This document shows, piece after piece, positions 3,027 to 26,668 of a stretch of DNA of 55,542 nucleotides (the stretch's first letter is position 1; every line of letters begins with the position of its first letter). A program made the position numbers and the translations under genes. This stretch comes from Ferrithrix thermotolerans DSM 19514 (GTDB lineage: Bacteria; Actinomycetota; Acidimicrobiia; Acidimicrobiales; CAIXPF01): NCBI GenBank assembly GCA_945906305.1, contig CAMDQT010000023.1, positions 1 to 55,542 of the forward strand, written 5' to 3'. Under the pieces are notes generated by a model. That model saw only the letters and a list, made by a program, of their open reading frames with translations, was not told where the DNA came from and ran no database searches.

Positions 3027-4751
3027 GTGGACGAGTCAGTGACCGGGCAAGGCGTCGGCCGAGTGATCGGCACCGAAGATGCCACCCCACTCGAGTTCTG
3101 GGTCGGCATCGGCCCCGACCAATTCCTCCAGCTCGACGATGTGGTCGCCACCTCCCGACCGTTGCCGGGCCGCGAACCCGTAGACATGTACGGCATCGTC
3201 ACCCAGGTCCGCGCCCGCCATGAAGGCGTGCGATTCGACACCGATGTCTTTCTCGTGGCGGACGGAGTGCTTCCGGCAGAGATCTCACAGGCCGCGCTGG
3301 TGGCCACCACCCGTTTCGAGCCCGAAGTGTTCGTCCCGCCGCTTCCCGGTTCGGTGGTCCACCGAGCGGCGCACAGCCAGCGAGACAAAGCCCTTGGTTG
3401 GGAACGCTGGCAGCACAAGTTGCCCGCTGGGCTCAGCCGCGACGACGACCCCATCTACGTCAACCTCGAGTTCCTCGACGGCACCCGTGGCGCCCACGTC
3501 AACATTTCGGGCATCTCCGGCGTGGCGACCAAGACCACCTATGCCAGCTTTCTGCTCTACAGCTTGTTCACCTCCGGTGTGCTCGGGGCCGAAGCGGCCA
3601 ACACCAAGGCGCTGGTGTTCAACGTCAAAGGCGAAGATCTGCTGTTCCTGGACCGCGCCAACCGCTTCCTGGAGGCGGAAGACGTGGACCGCTATCACCT
3701 GCTACACCTGCCCGCAGATCGGTTTCCGTCGGTGGGCTTTTTCGCCCCCCCGCGGCGCGGTGACCGCAACGGCACCCCCGACGTGGCCGGGCGAGGCGAG
3801 GGAGTAACCAGCTTCTACTGGACCATCGCCGAGTTCTGCCACGACGAACTGTTGCCATTCCTGTTCGCTGATGCAGAGGATGACCGTCAGCAATACACGC
3901 TCGTGGTCAGCAACGTGACCGCCCGGCTACGCGAGGCCCAAGACGTCGGCGACGGCGCGGTCAGCATCGACGGGAGCGTCTTGCGCACCTTCCGCCAACT
4001 CGCCGACTTCATCGCCGAGCGGGTCCACGACGACAGCGACGGTTGGGCCGGACGGGCCATAGGCGGCGGCACCGTCAACGCCTTCATCCGCCGTCTCTAC
4101 GGCGCAGTGAAACCCTTGGAGCACCTCATCCGGGCCGATCTCGCCCGGCCCGAACGCCACCGCATCCGCCTCGAGGAACAGGTCACTGTGGTGGACCTGC
4201 ACAACCTCAACGACCGAGCCAAACGTTTCGTGGTCGGCGTGACCCTGCGGCGCACCTTCGAGGAGAAGGAACGCGGCGGGTCGTCTCGGCCGCTGCTGTT
4301 CGTTGTCCTTGACGAACTCAACAAGTACGCGCCACGGGACGGCTCGAGCCCGATCAAGGAAATCCTCCTCGATGTCGCTGAACGCGGCCGATCGCTCGGG
4401 GTCATCCTCATCGGCGCCCAGCAGACCGCCTCCGAAGTTGAACGGCGGATCGTGGCGAATTCCGCCATCCGGGTGGTCGGCCGACTCGATCCTGCCGAAG
4501 CCACCCGACCCGAATACGGCTTCCTTACTGGGGTCACCCGCCAACGGGCCACGATCCTGCGACCGGGCTCGATGTTCCTCGCCCAACCAGAACTGCCCGT
4601 CCCGCTGTTAGTGACCTTCCCGTTCCCGGCCTGGGCCACCCGGATTAGTGAAGCCGTGGACGCCATGACCACGCCGCACCACGATCGGGTCGAGGACGGC
4701 TACCACCCGGCGCAGAACGACGACCCGTTCGCGGGCCTCGCTGACCCATGA
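3027..4751 (+). CDS. herA: HerA-type (FtsK/HerA fold) DNA-translocating ATPase
   Basis: This 574-residue protein has the HerA plan: an N-terminal HAS-like beta-barrel (about 1-110) and a RecA-like motor with Walker B VVLDELNKYAP near residue 426 and sensor region VILIGAQQTASEVERRI. The P-loop is unusual: GISGVATKTT at about residue 161 stands where GxxGxGK(S/T) is expected, yet keeps the Lys-Thr. HerA hexamers pump DNA and load NurA to resect double-strand breaks. I chose GTG 3027 because the longer frame from 2904 would run into glyA. It overlaps sbcD by 4 bases and begins the sbcD-sbcC-nurA run, which strongly supports a repair role over a conjugation or defence ATPase. Confidence 0.85.
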   Translation: MDESVTGQGVGRVIGTEDATPLEFWVGIGPDQFLQLDDVVATSRPLPGREPVDMYGIVTQVRARHEGVRFDTDVFLVADGVLPAEISQAALVATTRFEPEVFVPPLPGSVVHRAAHSQRDKALGWERWQHKLPAGLSRDDDPIYVNLEFLDGTRGAHVNISGISGVATKTTYASFLLYSLFTSGVLGAEAANTKALVFNVKGEDLLFLDRANRFLEAEDVDRYHLLHLPADRFPSVGFFAPPRRGDRNGTPDVAGRGEGVTSFYWTIAEFCHDELLPFLFADAEDDRQQYTLVVSNVTARLREAQDVGDGAVSIDGSVLRTFRQLADFIAERVHDDSDGWAGRAIGGGTVNAFIRRLYGAVKPLEHLIRADLARPERHRIRLEEQVTVVDLHNLNDRAKRFVVGVTLRRTFEEKERGGSSRPLLFVVLDELNKYAPRDGSSPIKEILLDVAERGRSLGVILIGAQQTASEVERRIVANSAIRVVGRLDPAEATRPEYGFLTGVTRQRATILRPGSMFLAQPELPVPLLVTFPFPAWATRISEAVDAMTTPHHDRVEDGYHPAQNDDPFAGLADP

Positions 4752-5944
4752 GCCTGCGACTGTTACACACCGCCGACTGGCACGTCGGCCGAACCCTGCG
4801 GGGCCGTTCTCGCCTGGACGAACACGAGGCCACCCTCGAGCAACTAGTGGCCCTGGCCGAGGATCAGCAGGTCGGCTTGGTGGTGGTGGCGGGTGACCTC
4901 TTCGACACCGCGGCACCGGCACCCGACGCCGAACGGCTCGTCTACCGCACCCTGTTACAGCTCGCCGGAGACGACCGGCAAGTACTCATCATCGCCGGCA
5001 ACCACGACCACCCACGGCGCTGGAATGCGGTCGCGCCAGTCCTCGACCTCGCCCGTATCCATGTCCGTCCCTTCGTGGTCGCCCCCGCCCAGGGCGGCGT
5101 GATAGAGCTAGAGATCACCGGCACGCCAACCTGCATAGCCCTGTTGCCGTGGCTGTCCCAACGCCACGCGGTCAGCGCCGACGACCTGCTCAGTCGAGAC
5201 GCGGACCAGCACAACCAGACCTACCTCGACCGCATGCGCCGGGTGGCCAAGGCCTTGTGCGCGCCGTTCAGCGCGGATCGGGCGAACCTCGTCGTGGGTC
5301 ACCTCACCGCCGTAGGCGCGACCCTCGGTGGTGGCGAACGGCTAGCCCACACCATCTTCGACTACGCCGTGCCAGCGTCGATCTTCCCCCCTACCGCAGG
5401 GTATGTCGCGTTGGGCCATCTCCACCGTCATCAGCGCGTCGACGGCCCGGCACCCACGTACTACTCCGGCTCGCCGCTGCAGCTCGACTTCGGCGAGGGC
5501 GACAACGACCCGACGGCGGTCATCGTGGAGCTGGCCCCCGGTCGGCCCGCCCGCCTCGAGGCCATAGAACTCGACGCCGCGCCGCGACTACGAACGCTAA
5601 CGGGCAGCGTGACCGAACTGGAACTGCTGGCCCGTGACACCGGCAACGCCCATCTCCGGCTGGTGGTGCGCGAAAGGCACCGAGCCGGGTTGGCCGATGA
5701 GCTACGCGAGCGCTTCTCCCGAGCGGTTGAGGTGCGCATCGAACCAGTTGAGGTGCCCGGGGACGAAGGCGGTAGGGGCATCGCCGCTCCACCCCGTCGG
5801 CTCGGACGAAGCCCCTACGAACTCTTTGGCGAGTTCATGGCCCAACAATCAGTGATCGACTCCCGGGTCGCGGCGCTGTTCGCCGAGTTGGTCGAACAAG
5901 ACAGCAGCGAAGACCACGACGCAGGCGGCGACAATGCGCCCTGA
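4748..5944 (+). CDS. sbcD: SbcD/Mre11 exonuclease subunit
   Basis: This 398-residue calcineurin-like phosphoesterase is the nuclease partner of SbcC. It acts on DNA ends, hairpins and protein-blocked breaks using two Mn ions. All metal-site motifs are present in order: HTADWHVGR (residues 7-15), GDLFD (about 49), GNHDHPRR (about 83) and GHLHRH (about 222). A capping domain follows, ending in the usual acidic tail. The length is normal. The ATG overlaps the herA stop (ATGA), and the end overlaps sbcC by 11 bases, so all are translated from one message. Confidence 0.95.
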   Translation: MSLRLLHTADWHVGRTLRGRSRLDEHEATLEQLVALAEDQQVGLVVVAGDLFDTAAPAPDAERLVYRTLLQLAGDDRQVLIIAGNHDHPRRWNAVAPVLDLARIHVRPFVVAPAQGGVIELEITGTPTCIALLPWLSQRHAVSADDLLSRDADQHNQTYLDRMRRVAKALCAPFSADRANLVVGHLTAVGATLGGGERLAHTIFDYAVPASIFPPTAGYVALGHLHRHQRVDGPAPTYYSGSPLQLDFGEGDNDPTAVIVELAPGRPARLEAIELDAAPRLRTLTGSVTELELLARDTGNAHLRLVVRERHRAGLADELRERFSRAVEVRIEPVEVPGDEGGRGIAAPPRRLGRSPYELFGEFMAQQSVIDSRVAALFAELVEQDSSEDHDAGGDNAP

Positions 5945-8336
5945 GCGGCTCGAGATGGAAGGATTCACGGCATTCCGGCGCCGTACCGTGGTGGACTTCA
6001 CCGACGCCGACCTCTTTGCCCTGTCCGGCCCGACCGGTGCCGGCAAATCCTCCGTGATCGACGCCATCGTTTTCGCGCTCTACGGCACGGTGCCTCGCCT
6101 GGCCGACCGGCGTCGTGTCGGGGCGGTCATCAGCCAAGGCCTCGTCGAGGCTCGGCTCGGCTTCGACTTCAGCATTGGACCCCGTAGATACCGAGTAGTA
6201 CGGGTGGTACGAGCCACGTCTTCGGGGTCGGCCTCGACCAAGGAAGCCCGCCTCGAACAGCGCCTCCCTGACGGCACCACGGCGCTGCTCGCCGGCGATG
6301 CCGACGAGGTCAGCCGCACTGTGGGTGCCCTTCTTGGGCTGAGCTACGAGCACTTCACCACCGCGGTCGTGTTGCCCCAGGGCGAATTCGCCCGGTTCCT
6401 GCACCACAAGGCCGCCGATCGCCAAGCGCTGCTCAAGGAGCTGCTCGATCTCGGCTTATACGACCGGTTACAACGCCGCGCCGGCCAGTGCGCCAAGCTT
6501 GAGGCGCACCGAGCCGAACTGGCCCGTGCCCGGCTGGACGAACTCGTCGACGCCAACGACGAGGCGGCAGCGCAGCTCGACGAGCAGCAGGCCTCGGTCG
6601 GGGCTCTACTCGACGCCTGCGACCGCGCAAGACCAACCCTCGACCAGTTGTCCGAACAACTCGCCGCGGCACAATTAGCTAGCGAGCACGCACGACGCAC
6701 GGCCGAGCTACTGCGGGCCGTCGAAAAACCTCGCGACGTCGTCGCCCTCGCCAACACCCACAACACGCTCGTCGCCGCGCTGGCCGATGCCGAAGAGAAC
6801 GACGAGCCGCACCGAGCCGCGGTCGAACAGGCTGAGAGCGCCCTCGCCTCGCTGCCGACAGTGGCGGACAGCGAACGGGTCATCGAAGCCCACGCCCAGC
6901 TCGACCAACAACGCGAGCAGATCTCCCAGGGCCTTGAGGCGCAGCAAGCCCAACACCAGCGCCTCGCCCAAGCCGTAGCCGCTTCGCAGGCCGCGGCCGC
7001 GGTGCTCGTGGCGGCAGATCTCGCCCTGGAGGCCGCCCGAACTGCTAGTGCCGCCGCGGCGCTAGCGGAACACCTGCACCCCGGCGATGATTGCCCGGTG
7101 TGCGGCCAGGTGGTCAATACCCTACCCGCCGCCCTACCGAACGGTCTGGGCAACACGGTCGAGGCGCAACGTCAGGCCACTGCCGACGCCGCCAAACGTG
7201 AGGCAGAACGACAGAAGCACGAAACTGAGCTGACCCGCATCGAGACCCGATTGGAACAAAGAACCGCGGAGAGCGACGTTTTGGCCCAAAGGATCGCCGC
7301 CGGAGCAGACCTCAAGACGGCGGAACGTAACCTCGCCGCCGTCCGCGCCGCGACCGAGGCCCTCGCCGCGACCCGCGCCGCGCGCGACTTACACACCAGC
7401 CACTTTCGCCAGGCTCGCGACGCAGTCCAGCAATCGACCCAGCTCCAGCAAAAAGCCTGGGCCAGCTTCGATCAGACGCGTGACCAGCTCGCCGCCCTGG
7501 GCCCACCAGCAGCGGCACGCACCGACCTCGACGTCGACTGGGACCAGCTCGTGGCCTGGGCCCTTGAGCAAAGTGCCCGGCTGGGCGACCGCGCCGCGTC
7601 GGATGATGCCGATGCCACCGAACTCACCGCGAGTCGAGAAAGGGCCCTGAACGACCTGCGAGCCCAGGCCGAGCACGTCCTGGCCGGCCGCCGGGGCACA
7701 GACTTTGGCGAGATCCGTGATCTGGCGGTTGCTGACCAGGCCCGGCTTGCCACCAGACGCCAACAACTCACGGCGGACCTCGCCCGTGCCCAGACGGCGC
7801 GCATCGAGCACAAGGCCGCCACCGAGGACGAACGGGTGGCGAGCACAGTGGCCCAATTGCTGCGGGCGGACCGTTTCGGCGCCTGGATCGTGGACGAGGC
7901 GCTCCAGCAACTGGTACAGAGCGCAACCGGCCTGCTGCACAGCCTGTCGAGCGGTGCCTACTCGATGGTGATGGACGGCAAGGACTTCGCCGTCATCGAC
8001 CACAACAACGCCGACACCATGCGTTCCGCCCGCACGCTTTCGGGTGGCGAAACGTTCCTGGCCTCCCTCGCGCTGGCGTTGGCGCTAGCCGAACAAGTGA
8101 TGACCCTGGCCGGGCCGACCGCGGCGCCACTCGAATCGTTGTTCTTGGACGAGGGGTTCGGCAGTCTTGACCCCGACACCCTCGACGCGGTCGCCACCGC
8201 CATCGAGGAACTCGGCAGCTCCGGCCGGATGGTGGGACTGGTCACCCACGTGCGCGACCTCGCCGAACGGTTGCCCGTTCGCTTCGAAGTGACCAAAGGT
8301 CCGAACGGCGCCACCGTCGAGCGGGTCATGGCGTGA
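5934..8336 (+). CDS. sbcC: SbcC/Rad50 SMC-like ATPase
   Basis: This 800-residue protein tethers DNA ends and gates the SbcD nuclease by ATP-driven closure. The ABC head is split between the two ends: Walker A GPTGAGKSS (residues 32-40), Q-loop VVLPQGEFARFLHH (about 147), signature LSGGETFLASL (about 702) and Walker B SLFLDEGFGSLD (about 737). Two Ala/Gln/Glu-rich coiled-coil arms flank the zinc hook CPVC at residues 387-390. It is shorter than the 1048-residue E. coli SbcC because the coils are short. It overlaps sbcD upstream and nurA downstream (GTGA). Confidence 0.96.
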   Translation: MRPERLEMEGFTAFRRRTVVDFTDADLFALSGPTGAGKSSVIDAIVFALYGTVPRLADRRRVGAVISQGLVEARLGFDFSIGPRRYRVVRVVRATSSGSASTKEARLEQRLPDGTTALLAGDADEVSRTVGALLGLSYEHFTTAVVLPQGEFARFLHHKAADRQALLKELLDLGLYDRLQRRAGQCAKLEAHRAELARARLDELVDANDEAAAQLDEQQASVGALLDACDRARPTLDQLSEQLAAAQLASEHARRTAELLRAVEKPRDVVALANTHNTLVAALADAEENDEPHRAAVEQAESALASLPTVADSERVIEAHAQLDQQREQISQGLEAQQAQHQRLAQAVAASQAAAAVLVAADLALEAARTASAAAALAEHLHPGDDCPVCGQVVNTLPAALPNGLGNTVEAQRQATADAAKREAERQKHETELTRIETRLEQRTAESDVLAQRIAAGADLKTAERNLAAVRAATEALAATRAARDLHTSHFRQARDAVQQSTQLQQKAWASFDQTRDQLAALGPPAAARTDLDVDWDQLVAWALEQSARLGDRAASDDADATELTASRERALNDLRAQAEHVLAGRRGTDFGEIRDLAVADQARLATRRQQLTADLARAQTARIEHKAATEDERVASTVAQLLRADRFGAWIVDEALQQLVQSATGLLHSLSSGAYSMVMDGKDFAVIDHNNADTMRSARTLSGGETFLASLALALALAEQVMTLAGPTAAPLESLFLDEGFGSLDPDTLDAVATAIEELGSSGRMVGLVTHVRDLAERLPVRFEVTKGPNGATVERVMA

Positions 8337-9271
8337 ACGAAGGCGGCCGGCTGAGCGTGCAAGCGTGGTCGCCCGAATACGGCGCGCCCCTGGAGGCGGA
8401 CGAGGACGTTGCGCCCGGCGGCGCTAGCGAGGCCACGATCAACCCCGATGTCGAGTTCCCGGCCGCGGCGTGGCGTCCAATCCGCCCGCCGGCGATGGCC
8501 AACCGGCCGGTGGCCTTTACCGACGGGGTACGTCGAATCGACGCCAACCTGGTGTGGAGCACCGATGACGGCGCGTTCCACCTCGGCCTGGCCGGCTCAG
8601 TAGCCGCCGGGGTAGTCCATTGCGACGGCCGGGCTGAGATCACCGAGGTCGCGCTCGACCGGGTGTTGCTCCTCGGGGTACCGACCGAGGCCGTGCAAAC
8701 CCGCGCCGCGAGATGGCGGTACCAGCCGCTGCGTCAGGCCGCCGATGACCCCGGCCGACTGTCCATCGAGCTGCAGCAGACCATGGCCGACCTCGAGGTG
8801 TCCGTTGCCGCCGACGCGGCCCGCCACGCCGAGTTGGTGGTGGTCGACGGTCCGATACGTCGCCGCGAGGGTGTCGCCAATGCCGTCGGCCACATCAAGA
8901 GCCATCACCACCGGTACCTGCCACCATCGCTGGCCCCCATCATCGGCGAGCTCGAAGCAGGCGAACGAACCCCGCTTTTCGCTATCGGCGCCCCCTTCCC
9001 TCGGCTGTCGTGGTACCTCCGCTTGCCGGGCCCCAGACAGCACCCGTGGTCGGGCGTGGTCCGTCACGAGATCCCCTTCACCGACGAGCACGAGGCCCGA
9101 CGCCTAGCGGACCTCGCCGCCGCCCTCGTGCCTCGCTTCGCCTCCCGGCCCGCCCGCGACCCACGCGCCCCTCAGAACCTCACGCCAATCAGCGGGCTGG
9201 AAGCACAGCTCCGCCACCGCCTCGGTGATGGGATGATGCTCTACCGGGCACTTCGAGCCGCGCTGGGCTGA
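8333..9271 (+). CDS. nurA: NurA-family 5'-3' nuclease
   Basis: In archaea NurA is the RNase H-like nuclease that works with the HerA pump to produce 3' single-stranded tails at breaks. This 312-residue protein shows the family marks: VAFTDGVRRID (about residues 60-70, first catalytic Asp), VVVDGPIRRR (about 165, second Asp), VGHIKSHHHRYL (about 184, with the conserved Lys), VVRHEIPF (about 240), and a C-terminal LTPISGLEAQLRHR helix. GTG 8333 overlaps the sbcC stop. Position as the fourth gene after herA-sbcD-sbcC adds strong support. The family call comes from motif pattern and context, not a search. Confidence 0.8.
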   Translation: MNEGGRLSVQAWSPEYGAPLEADEDVAPGGASEATINPDVEFPAAAWRPIRPPAMANRPVAFTDGVRRIDANLVWSTDDGAFHLGLAGSVAAGVVHCDGRAEITEVALDRVLLLGVPTEAVQTRAARWRYQPLRQAADDPGRLSIELQQTMADLEVSVAADAARHAELVVVDGPIRRREGVANAVGHIKSHHHRYLPPSLAPIIGELEAGERTPLFAIGAPFPRLSWYLRLPGPRQHPWSGVVRHEIPFTDEHEARRLADLAAALVPRFASRPARDPRAPQNLTPISGLEAQLRHRLGDGMMLYRALRAALG

Positions 9272-9285: not shown

Positions 9286-10488
9286 TCACGAACCGGTGGT
9301 GCTCCAGTGCCACGGCTCGCTGGGCAAGTTGTACAGCCCATACGCGGCGGCGTTGGCCGCCAACCACTGGTAAGCGGCCGAATAGCGGCTGCGGATCAGG
9401 TCGCCGCCCACCATGAAGTCCACCGCGAGGCCCTGCTCGTGCATCGAATAACCCGGGCGGGCCACCGCAGGTGAGCAATCCATCGAGCTCATCTCCCAAA
9501 TGGCGTACTCGCTGGTCCCGCAATGCTGCATGCGCAACTCGATCTGGGTGGCGATATCGCGATAGCCGTAGCCGCTGAGGTACACCCCGTCGGCCTCGGC
9601 GTCGACGAGCAGCGCCGCGAGGTCCGCCGCGACCGCGACGTTGATGTCGATACCTCCCACCGTGGCTACCTGCACCCCCGACAAGGTCCACGAGGGCCGC
9701 GACCCGCCGGACCCGGGCCCCACCCTGGCGGCAAGTCGTCGCTCGCGGCTGCTGATCTGCTCGGCGAGGTCCGCACTGCGCCAACTGATCACTGCCGCCT
9801 CGCTCAGGGCCCGATCGAGGCGCGCCTGCACGTCATCGGCCAACGCCTGCTGGTCGGCCAGGGAGTGGTCGAGTGCGGCGAGGGCCCGCCGTTCGGCGGC
9901 GGCGGCTTCCCGGGCGGCGACCAGCGCGATCGCCGCCCGCACGCCTGCCCGCCTCGCCCGCTCCGACGCAGCGCGCATCTCGTCGATGACATCGGCCACC
10001 CTACGGGTGTGCGTGGCCGCCAGCACCGTGCGTTTGGCCCCCGCGCTGGGGTCGTGATCGGCCAGCACGGTGGCGAGGTAGTCGAACGGCGGCCGCACAT
10101 AGGCCGACAACGCCGCATCGGCCAGCTCCCCGCGCAAGCTCGCCAGCACCGCATCGGCATCGGCCTTTTGGTTGGCGGCCTGCATCACCTCCGCGTGCAC
10201 GGCACGCGCGTTGGTCTCGGCGTCCTCCGCGTTTGCTCGCTGGCGGGCTACCGCCATGTCCAGGGCGGTGATCGCGGCGTCGACCGCATCGGCATCGGCG
10301 GTGAGCGCGTCGACCTCGGCGGCCTTGGCTGCCTCCTCGTCGCGTAGCTCGTCCTGCTGCTGCTGGAGGCTTGCCCCCTGGGCGGAGGCCCCTTCGTCGT
10401 GCACGCTCGGCCCCGCCGCGGCGAGCACCAAGGCGACGGCCAAGGCGCCGACGATGCGCCCGCATCGACGTCGAATTCGTGCCTGCAT
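9286..10488 (-). CDS. Secreted VanY-like D-Ala-D-Ala carboxypeptidase with coiled-coil domain
   Basis: The 400-residue product starts with a signal sequence (MQARIRRRCGR, then a hydrophobic run of about 15 residues ending near ASAQG). A long Ala/Glu/Gln-rich coiled coil follows (about residues 40-250), then an M15B peptidase domain. Zinc and catalytic marks are SMHEQGLAVDF (about 345) and EPWHW near the C-terminus. Such enzymes trim peptidoglycan stem peptides outside the membrane. The coiled coil resembles that of EnvC/PcsB-type wall hydrolases. I chose ATG 10488; the frame is open further upstream, but that part would precede the signal sequence. It is convergent with nurA (14-base gap). 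Confidence 0.85.
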   Translation of the reverse strand: MQARIRRRCGRIVGALAVALVLAAAGPSVHDEGASAQGASLQQQQDELRDEEAAKAAEVDALTADADAVDAAITALDMAVARQRANAEDAETNARAVHAEVMQAANQKADADAVLASLRGELADAALSAYVRPPFDYLATVLADHDPSAGAKRTVLAATHTRRVADVIDEMRAASERARRAGVRAAIALVAAREAAAAERRALAALDHSLADQQALADDVQARLDRALSEAAVISWRSADLAEQISSRERRLAARVGPGSGGSRPSWTLSGVQVATVGGIDINVAVAADLAALLVDAEADGVYLSGYGYRDIATQIELRMQHCGTSEYAIWEMSSMDCSPAVARPGYSMHEQGLAVDFMVGGDLIRSRYSAAYQWLAANAAAYGLYNLPSEPWHWSTTGS

Positions 10489-10600
10489 CACCCTCAAGGG
10501 TAGGGGACGGGACCCCTCTGGCGGGTCGAGAACGCCACGCCGAGCGGAGACTTGGCGCCGCATTTGGGCGGCCAGACTGACGAACTGCTGGAATCTCGGT

Positions 10601-11359
10601 ATGGGAAACCGTTTCGACCTATCGGGAAAAGTCGCGGTCGTCACCGGCGGAAGCCGGGGTATGGGTCGCGAGATGGTGCTGGCCTTCGCCGAAAGCGGGG
10701 CCGATGTCGTCATTGCCAGTCGTAAACTCGACGCCTGCGAAGCGCTCGCGGCGGAGGTCACGGCCCGCTTTCCCGAACGCCAGGCCCTCGCCCTAGCCAC
10801 CCATGTCGGACGCTGGCAGGACTGCAACGAGCTCGCCGAGAAGGCCTACGACCGCTTCGGCAGTATCGATGTACTGGTCAACAACGCCGGCATGTCACCG
10901 CTGTACGACTCGCTGGTCGATGTGAGCGAGGAGCTCTACGACAAGGTGCTCTCGGTCAATCTCAAAGGTCCGTTCCGACTGATGGCCCTCTTCGGCGATC
11001 ACATGGCCAAGGGCAGCGGCGGCTCGATCATCAACGTGTCCTCGATTGCATCGATTCGGCCCACCCCCATCGAGACGGCCTATGCCGCAGCCAAGGCCGG
11101 CCTCAACGCCCTCACCGTCGCCTATGCCCACGCCTTCGGGCCCAAGGTGCGGGTGAACACCATCGTGGCTGGCCCGTTCCTCACCGACATCTCCAAGGCC
11201 TGGGACCTCGACGCCTTCAATGCTCGGGTGCAGGCCAACTACGCGCTCGGCCGGGGCGGACAACCAGACGAGATCGTCGGGGCAGCCCTCTACTTCGCCA
11301 GTGACGCCTCCAGCTACACGACCGGGGCCCTGCTGCGCGTTGACGGCGGCGCGCCCTGA
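10601..11359 (+). CDS. SDR-family dehydrogenase/reductase
   Basis: This classical short-chain dehydrogenase of 252 residues shows cofactor motif TGGSRGMG (about 15-22), NNAG (about 91), Ser in NVSSIASI and catalytic YAAAK (about 160-164). The tail ends in LLRVDGGAP. Arg after the glycine motif and SRK at strand 2 suggest NADP preference. The substrate cannot be read from sequence; the neighbouring thiolase suggests a 3-hydroxyacyl-CoA or alcohol. ATG 10601 is the first start matching the domain. The gene is divergent from the VanY-like gene (112-base gap) and converges on the thiolase. Confidence 0.92.
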   Translation: MGNRFDLSGKVAVVTGGSRGMGREMVLAFAESGADVVIASRKLDACEALAAEVTARFPERQALALATHVGRWQDCNELAEKAYDRFGSIDVLVNNAGMSPLYDSLVDVSEELYDKVLSVNLKGPFRLMALFGDHMAKGSGGSIINVSSIASIRPTPIETAYAAAKAGLNALTVAYAHAFGPKVRVNTIVAGPFLTDISKAWDLDAFNARVQANYALGRGGQPDEIVGAALYFASDASSYTTGALLRVDGGAP

Positions 11360-11449: not shown

Positions 11450-12634
11450 TCAGAGACGCTCGATCAGGGTGCCGGTACCAAGGCCACCGCCACAGCACAT
11501 GGTGATCAGGCCATAACGACCCCCGGTGCGAACCAGTTCGTGCACCGCCTTGGTGGCCAGGAAGGTGCCGGTCGCGCCGAGCGGGTGGCCCAAAGCGATC
11601 GCCCCGCCGTTGGGGTTGACCCGCTCCATGTTGGGCTGCAGTTCCTTGGCCCACGCCAACACCACCGCGGCGAAAGCCTCGTTGATTTCCACCACGTCTA
11701 TGTCGCCCATGGTCAACTCGGCCCGCTCCAGCAACTTGCGCGTCGCCGGGATGGGACCTTCGAGCATGAGCACCGGGTCACAGCCGACCAGCGCCGTGCC
11801 CACGATGCGAGCGAGGGGGCGGACACCGAGCTTGTCGGCCCGCTCGGCCGACATCACCAGTACCGCCGAGGCGCCATCGGCGATCTGCGAGGACGATCCA
11901 GCGGTGTGAATGCCGTTCTCGCGGGCTACCGGCTTGAGGGTGGCCAGCTTCTCCAAGGAGGTGTCGCGGGGGATCTCATCGCGGTTGACCAGCCGGCGCT
12001 CCCCGGTGCGCTCGCCGTCCTCGCCGACCACGTCGACCTCAAGTGAGATGATCGACGTCTCGAAGCGACCCTCGGCGATGGCCCGAGCGGCCCGGATCTG
12101 GGACTCGAGGCCCAGACGGTCGGCGTCGAGACGGGTGATGCCGTACTTCTCCGCGATCCGCTCGGCGCCCTCGAACTGGCTGGCGAACTCGTAGTGGGCG
12201 AAGTAGCTACGCGAGATCGGTTTGCCGTAGCCCGCCTGGGCACCGGCGAAGGCGTCGGACCCGATGGGCAGACGGCTCATGTTCTCAACGCCGCAGGCCA
12301 AAACCACATCTTCCGCACCGGAGGCCACCAGGCTGAAGGCCTGGTTGAGCGCCTGCTGGCTGGAGCCGCACTGGGCATCGATAGTGGTGGAGGCCACCTT
12401 CTCGGCCCCACCGTGAGACAGCCAAGCCGTCCGAGTGACGTTCATGGCCTGGGCGCCAACCTTGTTGATGCACCCACCCACCACCTGGTCGACCTGACCA
12501 GACTCCAAACCGGCCCGACGGAGAACCTCCATCTGAACCGGTCCCAGGACATCGGCGGGGTGAGTGGCGGCGAGCGAGCCACCCCGCTTCCCGATGGCCG
12601 AACGACCTGCTTCGACGATCACCACGTCACGCAT
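11450..12634 (-). CDS. Acetyl-CoA C-acyltransferase (thiolase)
   Basis: This 394-residue degradative-type thiolase cleaves 3-ketoacyl-CoA with CoA in the last step of beta-oxidation. The nucleophile motif is IDAQCGSSQQAL (Cys at about 90), with GHPLGATGTFL (about 350) and the C-terminal CCGGGLGTG, which holds the acid/base Cys. All catalytic residues are intact, unlike the thiolase-fold gene at 20269. ATG 12634 follows AAGGGGGA at proper spacing; a longer frame to 12685 has no support. The gene is divergent from the P450, with 140 bases between them holding a GCACGCT/AGCGTGC inverted repeat (12672-12693). Confidence 0.94.
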   Translation of the reverse strand: MRDVVIVEAGRSAIGKRGGSLAATHPADVLGPVQMEVLRRAGLESGQVDQVVGGCINKVGAQAMNVTRTAWLSHGGAEKVASTTIDAQCGSSQQALNQAFSLVASGAEDVVLACGVENMSRLPIGSDAFAGAQAGYGKPISRSYFAHYEFASQFEGAERIAEKYGITRLDADRLGLESQIRAARAIAEGRFETSIISLEVDVVGEDGERTGERRLVNRDEIPRDTSLEKLATLKPVARENGIHTAGSSSQIADGASAVLVMSAERADKLGVRPLARIVGTALVGCDPVLMLEGPIPATRKLLERAELTMGDIDVVEINEAFAAVVLAWAKELQPNMERVNPNGGAIALGHPLGATGTFLATKAVHELVRTGGRYGLITMCCGGGLGTGTLIERL

Positions 12635-12671
12635 CCGCGTTCCCCCTTGCCCGGCAGTGCGGTGTCTGCCC

Positions 12672-12693
12672 GCACGCTCGCCCACCAGCGTGC
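12672..12693. repeat. Inverted repeat between divergent thiolase and P450 genes
   Basis: The arms GCACGCT (12672-12678) and AGCGTGC (12687-12693) have an 8-base loop. Its location between two divergent catabolic genes makes it a candidate operator, but no regulator gene is seen in the window to pair with it. Confidence 0.3.
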
Positions 12694-12774
12694 CGGGCGA
12701 AGCGCCCCCTCCACAAGCGCGACGGGCCGAGTGGACCGTCGCGAGCGGTCACAGCACTGTGGCAGGCTGGACCC

Positions 12775-14019
12775 ATGAACGCATCAACGGGCTCTGCCGA
12801 TCGAGGCGACGACACCGGCGACGTCGATGACGAGGACGTCGACCTCGGCCACCGGTCGGTGAACGCGGATCCCGACGCGTTCGCAGCGCGGATGCTGGCC
12901 GGTGACCCGATCCGGCGCAGCGAACGCAACCGGGCTTGGCTGCTGCTGTCCTACAAGGCGGCTACCGAGGGATTCTTGGAGCCCCGCTTCTCGTCGGACC
13001 GTACCCGCACCTTCACCCGTCAGATCGAACGGCGCGGCGCGGCCTTCGAGCGCACCTACGAGTTGCTGTCGGGCTGGATGGTGTTTCGCGACCCGCCCAC
13101 CCATACCCGCCTCCGGGAGCCGGTGCGGCGGGCGTTCACGCCCAAAGTCATGGAACGGTTGCGCCAGTCCGTCGAGGACACCGTGGACGAACTGCTCCGC
13201 GGTTTTGAGCGCGGCCAACACCTCGACCTCAAGGAACATTTCGCCAACCCCCTACCGGCTTTGGTGATCGCAGACCTGCTCGGCGTGGCGCGCGAGGAAC
13301 GGGTCCGGTTCCAGGCCTGGTCGAACCGCCTCGCTGAAATCGTCTTCTCGGTGGAGACCGACAACTACGACGAAGCCGGCGTGGTGGCCGCCACCGAAGA
13401 GTTCATCGCCTTCTTCACTGAGCAGATCGAGCACCGGCGCCACCACCCGGGCGAGGACCTAATCTCCAAAGTCGTCAACAGCGGCCTTGACGAGCTCACC
13501 GAACTCGAAGTCGTCGGGGCGTGCACCCTGCTGCTGTTCGCCGGGCACGAGACGACTACCAACCTGCTGGCATCGAGCGTACGCACGCTGTTCGGCCACC
13601 CGGGCGAAATCGAGCGGATCCGTCGCGGCGAAGTGCAAGACACGTTCTGCGACGAGCTGATGCGGGTCGCCGGCCCGGCCAAGGCCATGGTGCGCAAGGT
13701 GGCCGAAGCCCACGAACGCGGTGGCCATGGCCTCGCCGTCGGTGAGACCGTGTTCCTGGTGATGCTGGTGGCCAACCGTGACGGTGGCACCTTCACCGAT
13801 CCTTACCGCCTCGACCTTGGCCGCACCTACAACCCACAGCTCGGCTTCGGGTGGGGCAGCCATCTGTGCCTGGGAGCCAACCTGGCCCGCCTCGAGGGCA
13901 CCATTGCCCTCAGCGAGCTCTACCGGCGATTCCCCGACCTCACCCCTGACGGCGAGCCGCCGCATTGGCGCGGCAACCCGCTGGGCCGTTCGATCCGCGA
14001 CCTACCAGTGGTCCTGTAG
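12775..14019 (+). CDS. Cytochrome P450
   Basis: This soluble bacterial P450 of 414 residues is a monooxygenase fed by external ferredoxin and reductase. Visible marks are the I-helix LFAGHETTTN (about 256), K-helix ELMR (ExxR form, about 295) and heme-binding FGWGSHLCLGANLAR with Cys at 365. The N-terminal 25 residues are acidic and low-complexity. No redox partner is encoded nearby. It heads a co-directional set of hydrolase, MFS carrier and acyl-CoA dehydrogenase with gaps of 57, 23 and 12 bases. This suggests hydroxylation of an imported hydrophobic compound before CoA-based breakdown. The substrate is unknown. Confidence 0.94.
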   Translation: MNASTGSADRGDDTGDVDDEDVDLGHRSVNADPDAFAARMLAGDPIRRSERNRAWLLLSYKAATEGFLEPRFSSDRTRTFTRQIERRGAAFERTYELLSGWMVFRDPPTHTRLREPVRRAFTPKVMERLRQSVEDTVDELLRGFERGQHLDLKEHFANPLPALVIADLLGVAREERVRFQAWSNRLAEIVFSVETDNYDEAGVVAATEEFIAFFTEQIEHRRHHPGEDLISKVVNSGLDELTELEVVGACTLLLFAGHETTTNLLASSVRTLFGHPGEIERIRRGEVQDTFCDELMRVAGPAKAMVRKVAEAHERGGHGLAVGETVFLVMLVANRDGGTFTDPYRLDLGRTYNPQLGFGWGSHLCLGANLARLEGTIALSELYRRFPDLTPDGEPPHWRGNPLGRSIRDLPVVL

Positions 14020-14076
14020 CCGCTCAAGTCGGATCCGGTTTTGTTCTGAACCGGCCGCAGCGGCCAAGGTGAGCCG

Positions 14077-14961
14077 ATGCAGACCGTCCACTACCGGGGC
14101 AACTCCGGGCTTTCCATCGTCGCGGACGAACATGGCCCCGCTGACGGCGCCGTCGTGCTGTTGCTTCACGGCGGCGGGCAAAACCGTTTGGCGTGGAAGG
14201 GCAGTGGCGCCAAGCTCGCCAAGCTCGGCTACCGCGTCATCGCCCTAGACGCCCGGGGCCACGGTGACTCAGCGTGGGACCCCGAGGCCGACTACGAGAT
14301 GCCCACGATGGCCCAGGACCTGCTCGCGGTCATGGACCAGCTCGGGGTGCACCGCCCCGCCGTGGTCGGCGCATCCCTCGGCGGGATCACCGCGCTCGAA
14401 GCCCATGCCTTGACCGGCCACGAGGACCTCTTCAGCGCGGTGGTGCTCGTGGACATCACCCCACAGGTGGAACTCGACGGCGTCCGACGCATCGTGGCGT
14501 TCATGACCGCGCACCCCGAGGGATTCGCCACCCTCGACGATGCCGCCGCCGCCATCGCCGCCTACAACCCCCACCGGCCGCCGCCCGCCAACCCAGCCGG
14601 GTTGTCCAAGGTGCTGCGCCAGAGCGCCGACGGCCGCTGGCACTGGCACTGGGATCCGCGCTTCATGACCCACCGCCACGCGCAGATGGACACCGAACCC
14701 GAGGCGTGGGCCGCGGCCCGCCAGGAAATGGCCGATCGGCTCCACGATTCGGCCGGGGCCATGCAGGCACCATTGCTGTTGGTGCGCGGCCTGCAATCCG
14801 ATCTGGTCAGCGACGATGCCGTCGCCGCCCTGCGCGCCGCCGCCCCCCGAGCCCGCTACGTCGACGTCCGCGGCGCCGGACACATGGTCGCGGGCGATGA
14901 CAACGATGCGTTCACCACCGCGGTGGCCGACTTCCTCGGCCAGCACGTTCCTCTGGCCTGA
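14077..14961 (+). CDS. Alpha/beta hydrolase
   Basis: This 294-residue hydrolase shows the full set: oxyanion-hole LLLHGGGQNRLAW (about 28-40), nucleophile elbow VGASLGG (Ser at about 100) and terminal His in GAGHMV (about 267). The acid is probably the Asp near VRGLQSD. Esters, lactones or C-C bonds are possible substrates. It resembles the epoxide-hydrolase/MhpC group in layout. It lies between the P450 and the MFS gene in one apparent operon, so it may open or deacylate the P450 product. Start ATG 14077 gives a normal N-terminal strand. Confidence 0.88.
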   Translation: MQTVHYRGNSGLSIVADEHGPADGAVVLLLHGGGQNRLAWKGSGAKLAKLGYRVIALDARGHGDSAWDPEADYEMPTMAQDLLAVMDQLGVHRPAVVGASLGGITALEAHALTGHEDLFSAVVLVDITPQVELDGVRRIVAFMTAHPEGFATLDDAAAAIAAYNPHRPPPANPAGLSKVLRQSADGRWHWHWDPRFMTHRHAQMDTEPEAWAAARQEMADRLHDSAGAMQAPLLLVRGLQSDLVSDDAVAALRAAAPRARYVDVRGAGHMVAGDDNDAFTTAVADFLGQHVPLA

Positions 14962-14984
14962 GCCACCGCGATCCGAACCCTGAG

Positions 14985-16238
14985 ATGATGACCAACCGGC
15001 GTCGTTGGACCCTGTTCGCCGCGGCCTGGCTGGTCTATGCCGGGTTCGGGCTGACCGCGGGCGCGATGGCCCCGGTGGTCGGTGAGATCCGCGCCGACCT
15101 TGGTGTGTCGAGTACGGCGATGGGCGTGGTGCTCGGTGCGTGGCAGCTGGTGTACCTGTTCTCCGCCATCCCCAGCGGACGGGTCATCGACCGCATCGGC
15201 GCCCGCCGTGCGGTTACGGCCACCGCGGTTGTGGTCGCGGCATCGGGCGCCGCCCGCGCCCAAGCCCAGGGAATGTGGAGTTTGTACCTGGCGGTGGCGA
15301 TTTTCGGGCTCGGCGGACCGCTGATCTCCATCGGCGGTCCCAAGCTGATCGCCACCTGGTTCGCCCCAATGGATCGAGGCAAGGTAGTCGGCCTGTTCAG
15401 CACCGCGCCCGCGGTTGGGGCCATGATCGCGCTGTTCGCCATGCACAGCGTGGCCATCCCCCTCACCGGATCGTGGCGAGGGGCGATGTTGTTGTACGCC
15501 GGGTTCACGTTGTCCACCGGAGCGGTGTGGTGGGTTGTCTCCGCAACACACACCGTTGCCTCAACCACACCGGCAGTGGACAAACCTGACGCCGCCGCGA
15601 CGGAGACACGGCATCACGAACTGCACGATGCCGTACCCACCGCGACCAACCGCCAATTGCTGGCTTTGAAGTCGGTGCGGCTGGTGCTGGTCTTGGCCCT
15701 CGGGTCCTTTCTGTTCAACCACGGCATCGGCAACTGGCTGGTGGAGATGCTCCGCGACGGTGACCGCACCGCCGGGCAGGCCTCCGACCTCGCCGCGCTC
15801 ACCACCTTGGTCGGCATTGGTTCGGCGCTGATTGTTCCGCGCCTGGCCAGCCCGGCTCGACGCAAGCGGGTCTACCTTGGCGTCTACCTGCTGGGCGCGA
15901 TCGGGGTGGCCTTGGTGCCCCACCTCGACGGTGCCACCGTGTTCGTCGCGCTGGTCGCGGTGGGCATCACCCGCGCCGCGGCCCTGCCGCTGGGCATGAT
16001 GCTGCTCATGGACGACCCTGGGGTGGGCGCTTCCAACATGGCCGTAGCGGGAGGGCTCTACTTCACCGCCGGTGAAATTGGCGGCGTGATCGGGCCGCTG
16101 CTGGTGGGCAGCGCCGCCAGCGCTTCGGGCGGATACGGCCTGGCGGCGCTGCTGCTTTCAGGCTGCTCGCTGACCCTGGCCGTGGTGTTGGGACGACTAC
16201 CGTCACGCGCTCGCTTGGCCAACACGGCAAGGGTCTGA
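14985..16238 (+). CDS. MFS transporter
   Basis: This 417-residue integral membrane protein has about 12 hydrophobic segments in two halves, split by a polar loop (about residues 195-225). The family A-motif region reads SGRVIDRIGARRAV (about 65-78), which is the usual loop 2-3 signature with G-x3-D-R-x-G-x-R. It most resembles the nitrate/cyanate/oxalate-formate-like MFS branch in overall pattern, but the substrate cannot be inferred. Its position between a hydrolase and an acyl-CoA dehydrogenase suggests uptake of the compound metabolised by this operon. It is one of only two clear permeases in the window. Confidence 0.88.
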   Translation: MMTNRRRWTLFAAAWLVYAGFGLTAGAMAPVVGEIRADLGVSSTAMGVVLGAWQLVYLFSAIPSGRVIDRIGARRAVTATAVVVAASGAARAQAQGMWSLYLAVAIFGLGGPLISIGGPKLIATWFAPMDRGKVVGLFSTAPAVGAMIALFAMHSVAIPLTGSWRGAMLLYAGFTLSTGAVWWVVSATHTVASTTPAVDKPDAAATETRHHELHDAVPTATNRQLLALKSVRLVLVLALGSFLFNHGIGNWLVEMLRDGDRTAGQASDLAALTTLVGIGSALIVPRLASPARRKRVYLGVYLLGAIGVALVPHLDGATVFVALVAVGITRAAALPLGMMLLMDDPGVGASNMAVAGGLYFTAGEIGGVIGPLLVGSAASASGGYGLAALLLSGCSLTLAVVLGRLPSRARLANTARV

Positions 16239-16250
16239 CACGCTGGCGAC

Positions 16251-17429
16251 GTGATCGATTTCGAAATCCCCGCCGAGCTCGCCGAGCTGCGCGAGCGCAC
16301 CGCCACCTTTGTGCGAGACGAGATCATCCCGCTCGAGGCCCACACCCGTCGCGACCACCACGGCCCGACGGAGGAATTCCGCCTCGAGCTGGTCGAGTTG
16401 GCCCGCCGCGCCGGGCTGTTGGTCCCCCATGTCAGCAAGGAGTACGGCGGCCTCGGTCTTAGCCATGTCGGCAAGGCGCTGGTGTTCGAAGAGTCGGGCT
16501 ATTCGATGCTGGGCCCAGTGGCCATGCACATCGCCGCACCCGACGAGGGCAACATGCACCTGCTCGAAGTCGTGGCCAGCCATGACCAAAAAGAGCGCTT
16601 CCTGCGCCCGGTCACCTCCGGCCGGGCTCGCAGCATGTTCATGATGACCGAACCCGACGGCGGCGCAGGTTCGGACCCGTCGATGATGAAGACCCGGGCC
16701 GACGAACAGGCCGACGGCAGCTACCTCATCAACGGCCTCAAGTGGCTCATCACGAGCGCCATCGGGGCCAAGGTCGCCATCGTCATGGCCCGTACCTTCG
16801 ACCGAAACGGCGTTGACGTGGGCGCGACGATGTTTCTGACCGAGGCCGACGCGGTCGGCATCGAGATCGAAGAAGTGCTGCAGACCATGGACCACAACGC
16901 GGTGGGCGGCCATGCGGTGATCCGCCTGAACAACCTGCACCTAGCGGCAGATTCGGTGCTCGGCGAGGCCGGTGCCGGGTTCCGTTATGCCCAGGTACGG
17001 CTGGGCCCGGCCCGGCTCACTCATTGCATGCGCTGGTTGGGGGCCGCACGCCGCTGCCACGACATCGCCGCCGACTACGCCCGTACCCGCCACGCGTTCG
17101 GCAAGCCCATTGCGGAGCATCAGGGCATCGGCTTTCAGCTCGCGGACAACCTCACCGACATGCAGACCTCGCGGCTGCTGATCTTGCACTGTGCGTGGGT
17201 GCTCGACCAGGGCAGCCAGGCTCGCGAGGAGTCCTCCATGGCCAAGCTGTACGTCTCGGAGGCCACCAGCAGGGTCGTCGATCGTTGCGTGCAGATCCTC
17301 GGTGGCCAGGGCATCACCGGGCGGACTGTGGTGCGCCAGATCTACGAAGACATCCGCGCCTTCCGCATCTATGACGGCCCGAGCGAGGTTCACCGTATGG
17401 CCATCGCCCGACGGGCGGTGCGAGGCTAG
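16251..17429 (+). CDS. Acyl-CoA dehydrogenase (ACAD10/11-like)
   Basis: This 392-residue flavoprotein oxidises acyl-CoA to 2-enoyl-CoA. Visible are the FAD/substrate segment FMMTEPDGGAGSDP (about 125-138), the subunit-contact ILGGQGITGRTV, and IYDGPSEVHRM near the C-terminus. In that motif Asp stands at the place of the usual catalytic Glu (YEGT in MCAD), as is common in the ACAD10/11-like branch. GTG 16251 lies 12 bases after the MFS stop. The last 29 bases of the gene form the first copy of a 34-base tandem repeat that runs into the convergent gene. Confidence 0.92.
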   Translation: MIDFEIPAELAELRERTATFVRDEIIPLEAHTRRDHHGPTEEFRLELVELARRAGLLVPHVSKEYGGLGLSHVGKALVFEESGYSMLGPVAMHIAAPDEGNMHLLEVVASHDQKERFLRPVTSGRARSMFMMTEPDGGAGSDPSMMKTRADEQADGSYLINGLKWLITSAIGAKVAIVMARTFDRNGVDVGATMFLTEADAVGIEIEEVLQTMDHNAVGGHAVIRLNNLHLAADSVLGEAGAGFRYAQVRLGPARLTHCMRWLGAARRCHDIAADYARTRHAFGKPIAEHQGIGFQLADNLTDMQTSRLLILHCAWVLDQGSQAREESSMAKLYVSEATSRVVDRCVQILGGQGITGRTVVRQIYEDIRAFRIYDGPSEVHRMAIARRAVRG

Positions 17430-17497
17430 AACCACCATCGCCCGACGGGCGGTGCGTGGCTAGAACCGCCATCGCCCGACGGGCGGTGCGAGGCTAG
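17401..17497. repeat. Three tandem 34-base repeats, each with a hairpin
   Basis: Near-identical units start at 17401, 17435 and 17469 (third unit 29 bases), differing at only a few positions. Each holds CGCCCGACGGGCG, a 5-bp stem with a 3-base loop. Unit 1 is the 3' end and stop of the acyl-CoA dehydrogenase. Unit 3 contains the stop of the convergent lactonase-like gene. The array therefore fills the whole convergent intergenic space and may act as a stacked two-way terminator made by duplication of the gene end. Confidence 0.9.
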
Positions 17498-18171
17498 GCC
17501 GGTTCGGCGCACGCCGAGCGGTCGGCGTACGCCACGGCTGGGCTGGCCAGCCGGGCTGCACTGAGGGTCGGGTCAGCGGCAACCAACCGGGCGAGGGCGT
17601 CGAGACATTCGGCACCCCCGACGAGCACGAAGCGATGGTCGGACCGGTTGACCGCGACGGGCGTGAGGGTCAATCGAGGATCGTGCGGCGGGCCGACCAT
17701 GACCACCGCATCCTCGCTGTCGAGGACATTGCCCGCCGATGCCACGGCGAGGGGCCAGCCCGCGAGGCGACCGGGCCCGCTGAGCCCGAGCACGACAGCA
17801 TCGAACCGCTCGGGTAGCGACGCCGCGTAGCGCAGCCCGATGGCGTGAGGATCGAGCACCGGGTCGCTCATGACATGCAAGCGGCCAAGCGGCAGACCGA
17901 CCTGATCGGACAATTCCTCCACCAACACCCGGGAATGACGCGCCCGATCGCCGTCGCCCGCAACACCTTCATCGACTTGGAAAACGTTCACCCGGCCCCA
18001 GAAGATCTCGGTGTTCACCAGGGCGGCGTGGAGCAGCGGCGTCTGCGGACCACTGCCGAGGGCCAAGTTGAACACCCCGCGCCGACCCATGGCCTGACGC
18101 GCCAGCACCGTGAGGCGTCCGGCAAGGGCCACCGCGGCGGCCTTAGGGGTCGGGGCCACAATGAGCTCCAT
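17494..18171 (-). CDS. 6-phosphogluconolactonase-like protein (degenerate active site)
   Basis: This 225-residue protein has the NagB/RpiA/lactonase fold: NLALGSGPQTPLLHAAL (about 34-50, the sugar-phosphate-binding loop), RVNVFQVDEGVAGDGDRARH (about 60-80, cf. F-x-x-DER), then LGLSGPGRLAGWPLAV (about 130), where true 6PGL enzymes have a GxGxDGHxASLFP loop. The DGH signature is missing. It may hydrolyse another lactone, isomerise a sugar phosphate, or have lost activity. The stop lies in the tandem repeat, and the start is only 47 bases from the divergent acyl-CoA dehydrogenase. There are no pentose-phosphate genes nearby. Confidence 0.7.
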   Translation of the reverse strand: MELIVAPTPKAAAVALAGRLTVLARQAMGRRGVFNLALGSGPQTPLLHAALVNTEIFWGRVNVFQVDEGVAGDGDRARHSRVLVEELSDQVGLPLGRLHVMSDPVLDPHAIGLRYAASLPERFDAVVLGLSGPGRLAGWPLAVASAGNVLDSEDAVVMVGPPHDPRLTLTPVAVNRSDHRFVLVGGAECLDALARLVAADPTLSAARLASPAVAYADRSACAEPA

Positions 18172-18218
18172 CGCCGCACGCTACCGGCGCGGCTGGACCC
18201 GGCGCGGCTACCGTCCCG

Positions 18219-19403
18219 ATGGTGATCACCGAGGATGAGATCCGCAACTCACTCGCCGCAATCCTGACGCCCCGCCGGGCCGACGAACGCATGACCACGA
18301 TGGGTGCTGGCAGCGATGACCTCGAACCGGCCCGCGCCTATCTCGCCTCCACCGTGGGTGGCGGTTGGGCCCTTCCGTCGTGGCCCACGGCGTTCGGCGG
18401 TCGTGATGCGGATCCCGAGGAGGTGGCGCTGATCAACCGCGTCCTACGGGAGTTCTCCGTGCCCGACCTCTACGCCTACATGATTGGCCTGGGGATGTGC
18501 GGCCCGGCCCTGCTCGTGCACGGTACCGACGAGCAGCAGCAACGCTGGCTGCCCACCATTGCATCGGGGGCGGAGATCTGGTGCCAGATGTTCTCCGAGC
18601 CCGAGGCCGGTTCGGACCTCGCCAACCTGGCGTTGCGGGCCAGCCGTGACGGCGACGAATGGACCCTCGAAGGCCAAAAGGTGTGGACCAGCCGCGCCGT
18701 ATGGGCCCGCTGGGGTCTCTGCCTGGCTCGCACCGACCCCGACGTGCCCAAACACGCCGGGCTCACCATGTTCGCGGTGAACATGTATTCACCCGGGGTT
18801 GAGGTTCGGCCGTTGGTCCAAATGAACGGCGACGGCCATTTCTCCGAGGTGTTCCTCACCGGCGCCAGGGTGCCCGACGAGTGGCGGATTGGCGACATCG
18901 GTGCGGGCTGGAAGGTGGCCATGACGGTGCTGGCTCACGAACGGGCCGCGGCGGGAACCAATCGTGGCGGCGGGGACGGCGGCATCAAGGGGGTACGCAC
19001 ACCGGGCTGGCTACGTGACCTCGCGGACCGCGACGCCTTGAGCAACGCGGTGACCCGCCAGCGGGCCATGAAAATCCATGCCCGCGACGCCGCAGCCGGC
19101 TGGACCGCGGATCGAGCCAGCGTCTCACGCCAGCCCGGGCCGGCAGGATCGGGGGCCAAAGTGCACAAGACGTTCTCCTTCCAGGGTCGCGTCTACCTCG
19201 ACAAGGACAGCCGGGGGGCCGAAGCCATGCTGGCCAGCCACGACGGTCATGTCGAGTTCCTGACCGGGCCGTCGATGTCCATCCGAGGCGGCACCGACGA
19301 AATCCAACGCAACATTCTCGGGGAACGGGTGCTCGGACTACCCAGCGAGCCTCGCGTGGACCGCGACATCCCTTGGAGTAAGGCCCGTAAAGGCGAACAC
19401 TGA
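18219..19403 (+). CDS. Acyl-CoA dehydrogenase family protein (FadE-type, atypical active site)
   Basis: This 394-residue FAD protein of the large-substrate FadE type shows MFSEPEAGSDLA (about 125-136), QKVWTSRA (about 150) and the C-terminal SIRGGTDEIQRNILGERVLG. Gly takes the place of the catalytic Glu in the MCAD-type YEGT motif. In mycobacterial steroid catabolism, paired FadE subunits form heterotetramers in which one chain lacks the base. That could apply here, with the 16251 gene or another as partner. It begins the long plus-strand run to 26649; the next start is 50 bases on. Residues 315-335 (SGAKVHKTFSFQG...) look like a lineage-specific insert. Confidence 0.85.
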   Translation: MVITEDEIRNSLAAILTPRRADERMTTMGAGSDDLEPARAYLASTVGGGWALPSWPTAFGGRDADPEEVALINRVLREFSVPDLYAYMIGLGMCGPALLVHGTDEQQQRWLPTIASGAEIWCQMFSEPEAGSDLANLALRASRDGDEWTLEGQKVWTSRAVWARWGLCLARTDPDVPKHAGLTMFAVNMYSPGVEVRPLVQMNGDGHFSEVFLTGARVPDEWRIGDIGAGWKVAMTVLAHERAAAGTNRGGGDGGIKGVRTPGWLRDLADRDALSNAVTRQRAMKIHARDAAAGWTADRASVSRQPGPAGSGAKVHKTFSFQGRVYLDKDSRGAEAMLASHDGHVEFLTGPSMSIRGGTDEIQRNILGERVLGLPSEPRVDRDIPWSKARKGEH

Positions 19404-19453
19404 GCGCATCGGCCTCTTTGACGTGGGCATCAACTCACCGTTACGGTCCGCTA

Positions 19454-21851: not shown

Positions 21852-21878
21852 CCGAGCGCCGGGGCCGAACGAACCGCG

Positions 21879-22505: not shown

Positions 22506-22516
22506 GCGGTATTGCC

Positions 22517-22963: not shown

Positions 22964-22965
22964 TC

Positions 22966-23370: not shown

Positions 23371-23432
23371 GCGCTCGGTCAGCCGCGCCGCGGTGCTGAC
23401 GGTTGACCGGCGCGCAGGTAGCGTGGGCGGTC

Positions 23433-25801: not shown

Positions 25802-25803
25802 CA

Positions 25804-26649: not shown

Positions 26650-26668
26650 TCTCCCCGCAGCAGCGCCC

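Follow-up and report, generated by a model that had tools for sequence, protein, structure and literature searches.

The four genes herA, sbcD, sbcC and nurA considered here occupy positions 3027-9271 of a 55,542-nucleotide stretch of DNA from Ferrithrix thermotolerans DSM 19514 (contig CAMDQT010000023.1; the whole stretch is referred to below as the window), and the same four activities are encoded by one operon, herA-mre11-rad50-nurA, in the thermophilic archaea Sulfolobus and Thermococcus (PMC4351679, PMC2288612, PMC2718504). The genes of Sulfolobus islandicus are listed as herA, mre11, rad50 and nurA, form a single operon active in resection and are all essential (PMC4351679), while tags 1741-1744 of T. 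gammatolerans correspond to NurA, Rad50, Mre11 and HerA (PMC2718504); judged by these listings and gene numbers, the archaeal order is apparently the same as that of the window.

Among bacteria, the closest solved homologues by sequence of the HerA and NurA of the window are those of Deinococcus radiodurans (7f6d; PMC9960219), a pair which resects DNA ends in vitro, but which, according to its description, makes up an operon of two genes only, lacking sbcD-sbcC, in a species without RecBCD or AddAB, and which the same authors consider to be present in only a few bacteria, such as Deinococcus-Thermus. Transfer of bacterial HerA-NurA from archaea has been suggested (PMC12977600). The prior bacterial example of the full quartet is the nurA-hepA-sbcD-sbcC set of Oceanithermus profundus (PMC5448004), for which recruitment of SbcCD in one genus was proposed; its gene order differs from the herA-sbcD-sbcC-nurA of the window. 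Finally, several HerA-nuclease defence pairs, namely HerA-SIR2, HerA-DUF4297 and TdpAB, likewise combine a HerA-like motor with a nuclease. To our knowledge none of these pairs includes sbcD-sbcC. No description of the four-gene operon in Actinomycetota or Gemmatimonadota was found in the literature searched, many subscription papers being outside its reach, and four features set out below appear to be new: how widely it occurs, the SbcCD subfamily dedicated to it, the existence of two gene orders and the presence of AddAB in the same genomes.

The locus itself consists of four intact open reading frames on the forward strand, at the coordinates and with the overlaps given by an earlier note on this DNA, i.e., 4 bases (ATGA) for herA/sbcD, 11 nt for sbcD/sbcC and 4 bases (GTGA) for sbcC/nurA:

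3027-4751, + strand: herA, 574 amino acids (aa), predicted ATPase of Deinococcus type that pumps DNA as a hexamer (phmmer against PDB, 7f6d_B, E 2.8e-142).
4748-5944, + strand: sbcD (mre11), 398 aa, predicted metallophosphoesterase nuclease of an operon-specific subfamily (TIGR00619, PF00149, SbcD tree).
5934-8336, + strand: sbcC (rad50), 800 aa, predicted SMC-like ATPase with a CPVC zinc-hook motif (TIGR00618, AAA_23, SbcC_Walker_B).
8333-9271, + strand: nurA, 312 aa, predicted RNase H-like nuclease of bacterial type with an N-terminal pin-region tryptophan (phmmer, AlphaFold, conserved residues).

The match between HerA and its D. radiodurans homologue (drHerA) extends over nearly the whole length of the protein, and the Walker A K/T and Walker B D/E residues, invariant in seven relatives, align with K175/T176 and D487/E488 of drHerA. 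The herA frame opens at GTG 2904, which lies within the upstream gene and could also serve as the start; conservation sets in a few residues past GTG 3027. A Pfam search yielded no HerA family match for the 3027-4751 protein, a profile blind spot that was set aside because the match to the solved HerA is overwhelming. SbcD scored 170.7 bits with TIGR00619 (cut-off 77.65) and E 4.1e-10 with PF00149. SbcC matched TIGR00618 at E 3.6e-76, under the strict cut-off of that model as expected for a short 800-aa form, and exceeded the cut-offs of PF13476 (AAA_23) and PF13558 (SbcC_Walker_B), both Rad50-type domains, its translation also containing the CPVC motif. By sequence, a phosphoesterase-family SbcD is thus accompanied by a split-head, zinc-hook ATPase, as in SbcCD (Mre11-Rad50).

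Identification of the last gene required more than the established profile, since the product scored 15.6 bits with PF09376 against a curated cut-off of 21, and a six-frame search of the genome with that family returned no match. Equivalent comparison of PF09376 with 40 NurA relatives gave 34 matches at E 1 or better, the best being 7.1e-7; the profile under-detects this NurA branch, and the miss is a limit of the profile and not of the protein. By way of contrast, phmmer aligned the protein with D. radiodurans NurA (drNurA) at E 2.6e-21 and with TM1739 at E 0.035, and the AlphaFold model (mean pLDDT 90.5) matched the same two proteins in Foldseek (E 1.5e-19 and 1.2e-14, respectively), with Z scores of 22.2 for drNurA (7f6d_G) and 23.2 for TM1739 (1zup). 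Archaeal NurA structures gave lower values (2ygk, Z 15.2; T. kodakarensis and P. furiosus, Z 12-13). Residues D64, K189 and R278 correspond, allowing for a 20-residue tag offset in the phmmer alignment, to D53, K201 and R309 of drNurA, the mutation of which abolishes nuclease activity (PMC9960219). All three are invariant across 40 family sequences, as is W12, the surrounding region of which probably corresponds to the pin of drNurA, where an N-terminal tryptophan is likewise present. Sequence, predicted fold and putative catalytic residues all identify the product as NurA. The tight operon and the four identities proposed in the earlier note (HerA, SbcD/Mre11, SbcC/Rad50 and a NurA-type nuclease) are supported, albeit, for NurA, with the fold and catalytic residues in place of the profile. 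Its description of the operon as archaeal-type holds for the gene set and order but not for the proteins: HerA and NurA, with best matches in Deinococcus and Thermotoga, are of that bacterial type, archaeal NurA being matched by fold only, and SbcCD is bacterial.

Conservation of gene order among relatives, set beforehand as a test capable of refuting the proposal, was readily apparent. The quartet recurs in the same order and on the same strand in five relatives from the same taxonomic order (L013, L015, L016, L018, L019) and in seven further genomes, and a scan of named genomes with a HerA alignment, in which the best 80 of 449 relatives were analysed, placed herA-sbcD-sbcC-nurA on a single strand at 61 loci, with 16 others cut by contig ends and three breaking the pattern; at L033, L040 and L080 HerA lacks an adjacent sbcD in the DNA examined. 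Recurrence of the same order and strand in so many genomes indicates that the arrangement is not due to chance. Record titles assign the loci to Acidimicrobiia, Nitriliruptoria/Euzebyales, Thermoleophilia, Micromonosporaceae, Gemmatimonadota, Chloroflexota, Acidobacteriota, Bacteroidota and Pseudomonadota, labels that may be wrong for the several loci that are metagenome bins, and plasmid records extend the spread to Streptomyces and a cyanobacterium. By assigning bacterial NurA to a few groups, the earlier note consequently underrates its distribution, which takes in Cyanobacteriota and others besides. Of the records examined, those from Streptomyces and Sphaerospermopsis label NurA a 'hypothetical protein'. 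Throughout Micromonosporaceae the operon occupies a shared chromosomal neighbourhood, the commonest flanking gene family being present at 28 of 30 loci and four other families at 19-22, as expected for a settled, housekeeping-like chromosomal gene.

Two candidate additions to the unit were rejected. A fifth operon gene in gapped loci was discounted, the gap genes examined being mostly unrelated or antisense (an oxidoreductase, an opposite-strand methyltransferase, a transposase), and a second SbcC upstream of six Gemmatimonadota-type loci proved to be a Pfam SMC_N match (2e-63) with DAHP synthase adjoining. Two Micromonospora genomes have genes resembling TnpB-type transposases inserted after sbcD and before sbcC (L082 12984-14477; L098 12958-14481), and a gene for a TPR-like protein follows nurA on the same strand at two loci labelled Gammaproteobacteria (L026 16144-17208; L034 9326-10390).

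Closer to the source genome, a sample of 148 Acidimicrobiales genomes contained intact HerA in 22 and intact NurA in 21, mismatches being confined to G067, G102 and G147, all of which are cut at contig ends. HerA and NurA thus occur all-or-none, and SbcD stands next to HerA wherever the contig permits. SbcD itself exceeded its cut-off in 44 genomes, and SbcCD was present without HerA-NurA in about 20. The main order was seen, or was consistent with the available DNA, in 18 of the 22 operon-bearing genomes; the remaining four (G007, G050, G136, G145) carry the permuted order nurA-herA-sbcD-sbcC, which is that of O. profundus. At the permuted loci (L021, L125, L126, L127) HerA, NurA and SbcD have all diverged.

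A tree of 90 SbcDs separated 71 operon-encoded sequences, which cluster although drawn from many phyla, from 19 stand-alone sequences of the same taxonomic order on a branch with SH-aLRT 100, a split that holds for this sample rather than for all bacteria, the stand-alone set being from Acidimicrobiales only and the operon set having been collected via HerA. The four permuted-order members formed a group of their own, and G007 carries both an operon and a stand-alone SbcD. Tree distances for HerA, SbcD and NurA correlated at 0.89-0.93 over all 56 loci and at 0.78-0.86 for the main order only, compared with a maximum of 0.46 in 500 permutations. These data demonstrate that the quartet is co-inherited as a unit with a dedicated SbcD subfamily shared across many phyla, a wider occurrence than the recruitment in one genus proposed for Oceanithermus (PMC5448004). 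A bolder version, that the quartet is one old dedicated machine whose own SbcCD subfamily has long been separate from ordinary SbcCD, that the block has been inherited and exchanged among many phyla, and that its descent as well as its gene order is shared with the archaeal operon rather than reassembled in each lineage, is offered tentatively and seems to us rather unlikely.

Family searches of the source genome located adjacent and intact genes for AddB (1059 aa, PDDEXK_1 E 3.1e-40) and AddA (1154 aa, addA E 1.9e-83). The two genes lie together in 19 of the 22 operon-bearing Acidimicrobiales genomes, and a twentieth has them on different contigs; only AddB was found in G067 (78% complete), and no AddA match at E 1e-20 was obtained for G129 (97% complete; L131 region). 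The presence of AddAB in at least 20 of the 22, the source genome included, indicates that the operon supplements AddAB, and of the earlier suggestion that it might replace or supplement AdnAB/RecBCD only the latter half survives. G129 is a candidate for reliance on the quartet or on some other enzyme of resection. In a sister species of the same genus (G001, 99% complete) natural loss of the whole unit has occurred: conserved flanks enclose an operon remnant of ~1 kb (L014 9585-10571, G001:C36) in which herA survives as two fragments, sbcD as one and nurA as its last half, sbcC being absent, while AddAB is retained and the genome is without SbcD above the cut-off.

The interpretation that we favour, and regard as fairly probable, is that the four genes specify an accessory DNA-end-processing machine working alongside AddAB and not instead of it. 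By analogy with archaea, the SbcC-SbcD (Rad50-Mre11) pair would act first, recognising, tethering and cleaning the DNA end and trimming blocked or hairpin ends, whereupon HerA-NurA would load and make, or help to make, a 3' tail for recombination; on the D. radiodurans model (PMC9960219), a HerA hexamer would pump duplex into a NurA dimer, the pin of which would part the strands for cutting by NurA. Physical cooperation, this order of action and a role in repair are all suggested by those analogies, and it is in this qualified sense that we infer the single resection machine envisaged in the earlier note. End processing is favoured because of the intact HerA and NurA catalytic motifs, the NurA fold, the all-or-none occurrence, the two orders that each keep the quartet together, the separate operon SbcD clade, the correlated tree distances and the shared neighbourhood in Micromonosporaceae, and the in vitro resection by the D. 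radiodurans pair, together with the single operon of four essential genes in S. islandicus, lends it further support.

Several observations nevertheless weigh against such a role. In Thermococcus kodakarensis, HerA-NurA breaks down both strands and perhaps does not resect (PMC12977600), and deletions in D. radiodurans and Thermus were associated with modest or even improved damage resistance (PMC9960219, PMC12977600), although one Thermus study, unlike the others, recorded UV sensitivity (PMC5448004). Pull-downs with S. islandicus HerA contained no Mre11 or Rad50 (PMC4351679), whereas a Mre11-HerA interaction is reported for S. acidocaldarius (PMC2288612). The patchy distribution of the operon (22 of 148 genomes) and its decay in the sister species imply that it is dispensable, in contrast to the essential archaeal genes, and no LexA-type box (GAACN4GTTC) was found upstream of the operon in the window or in 78 loci.

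Patchiness and decay would accord with a function in defence, in which SbcCD would mark or open the ends of foreign linear DNA of phage or plasmid origin and HerA-NurA would destroy both strands, in the manner of the HerA-nuclease pairs, recombination having no part in the process; we consider this, the main rival reading, possible but not likely. For the T. kodakarensis complex, which degrades both strands, an antiviral function has been suggested by the authors concerned (PMC12977600). A linear plasmid of Streptomyces (L137; 980-9382, 11878-19447) has the operon next to a Wadjet-like gene set (TIGR02678, TIGR02679, TIGR02680, DUF2397) and an ImmA/IrrE protein, with a restriction endonuclease nearby, and a conjugative cyanobacterial plasmid (L138 8958-15958) carries nurA-herA-sbcD-sbcC, its NurA, annotated as hypothetical, being recognised by a hidden Markov model at E 6e-62. 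HerA relatives are, however, scarce on mobile elements, the plasmid collection containing 6 records and the phage collection 2, and the chromosomal neighbourhood shared in Micromonosporaceae also argues otherwise. A scan of neighbours conducted without a control set found a few flanking genes matching Gabija, AbiEi, SoFic, Hhe or helicase defence families, but mostly genes of ordinary metabolism or transport. While the NurA model matches a chain of the TdpAB complex (8wfd_G, Z 12.1), none of the PADLOC defence models matches NurA, and HerA is matched weakly.

It is decidedly improbable that the operon encodes two independent complexes sharing a transcript, SbcCD cleaning palindromes and hairpins, HerA-NurA having some other task, and nothing being handed over, physically or functionally, from one to the other. 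In Deinococcus and Thermus HerA-NurA is not linked to SbcCD (PMC9960219, PMC5448004), the converse applies to those Acidimicrobiales genomes with SbcCD only, and the S. islandicus pull-downs point the same way; but the operon SbcD forms a subfamily of its own, which accompanies HerA-NurA in different phyla and has distances tracking both, and the quartet stays together in two differing gene orders. The proposal that this bacterium uses the quartet as its main resection machine, in place of AddAB or RecBCD, derives some encouragement from G129 but is contradicted by the intact AddB-AddA pair of the source genome, by the presence of AddA and AddB in at least 20 of the 22 operon genomes and by the sister species that has lost the operon and kept AddAB, and is extremely improbable.

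The genes bordering the operon in the window are the following:

1507-2970, + strand: serine hydroxymethyltransferase (PF00464 E 3.4e-116), ending 56 nt before 3027 and outside the conserved unit.
9286-10827, - strand: VanY-type D-Ala-D-Ala carboxypeptidase (PF02557 E 3.7e-11), convergent and directly downstream of the operon.

In each of the three other genomes belonging to the genus, a VanY-type gene likewise lies next to the operon or what remains of it. An apparent divergent gene of 496 aa upstream of herA (minus-strand frame 1504-2994) was rejected as an antisense shadow of serine hydroxymethyltransferase, and there is therefore no divergent promoter upstream of herA. The position of serine hydroxymethyltransferase recalls the glycine-metabolism genes that follow Thermus nurA-hepA (PMC5448004), probably by coincidence. 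Further downstream (11450-29195) the window contains genes of the lipid or steroid breakdown type, including thiolases, acyl-CoA dehydrogenases, a cytochrome P450, a CoA transferase and an MFS transporter.

Recent papers view bacterial HerA-NurA as a Deinococcus-Thermus oddity derived from archaea, and disagree as to whether it resects DNA ends or destroys DNA, while the Pfam NurA model and current annotation overlook the NurA branch described here. Archaea in which the genes are essential do not allow the role to be tested in this way, whereas possession of the full quartet by mesophilic bacteria that can be cultured, namely Micromonospora and relatives, and by Acidimicrobiales that also have AddAB, makes that role testable where the genes may be dispensable.

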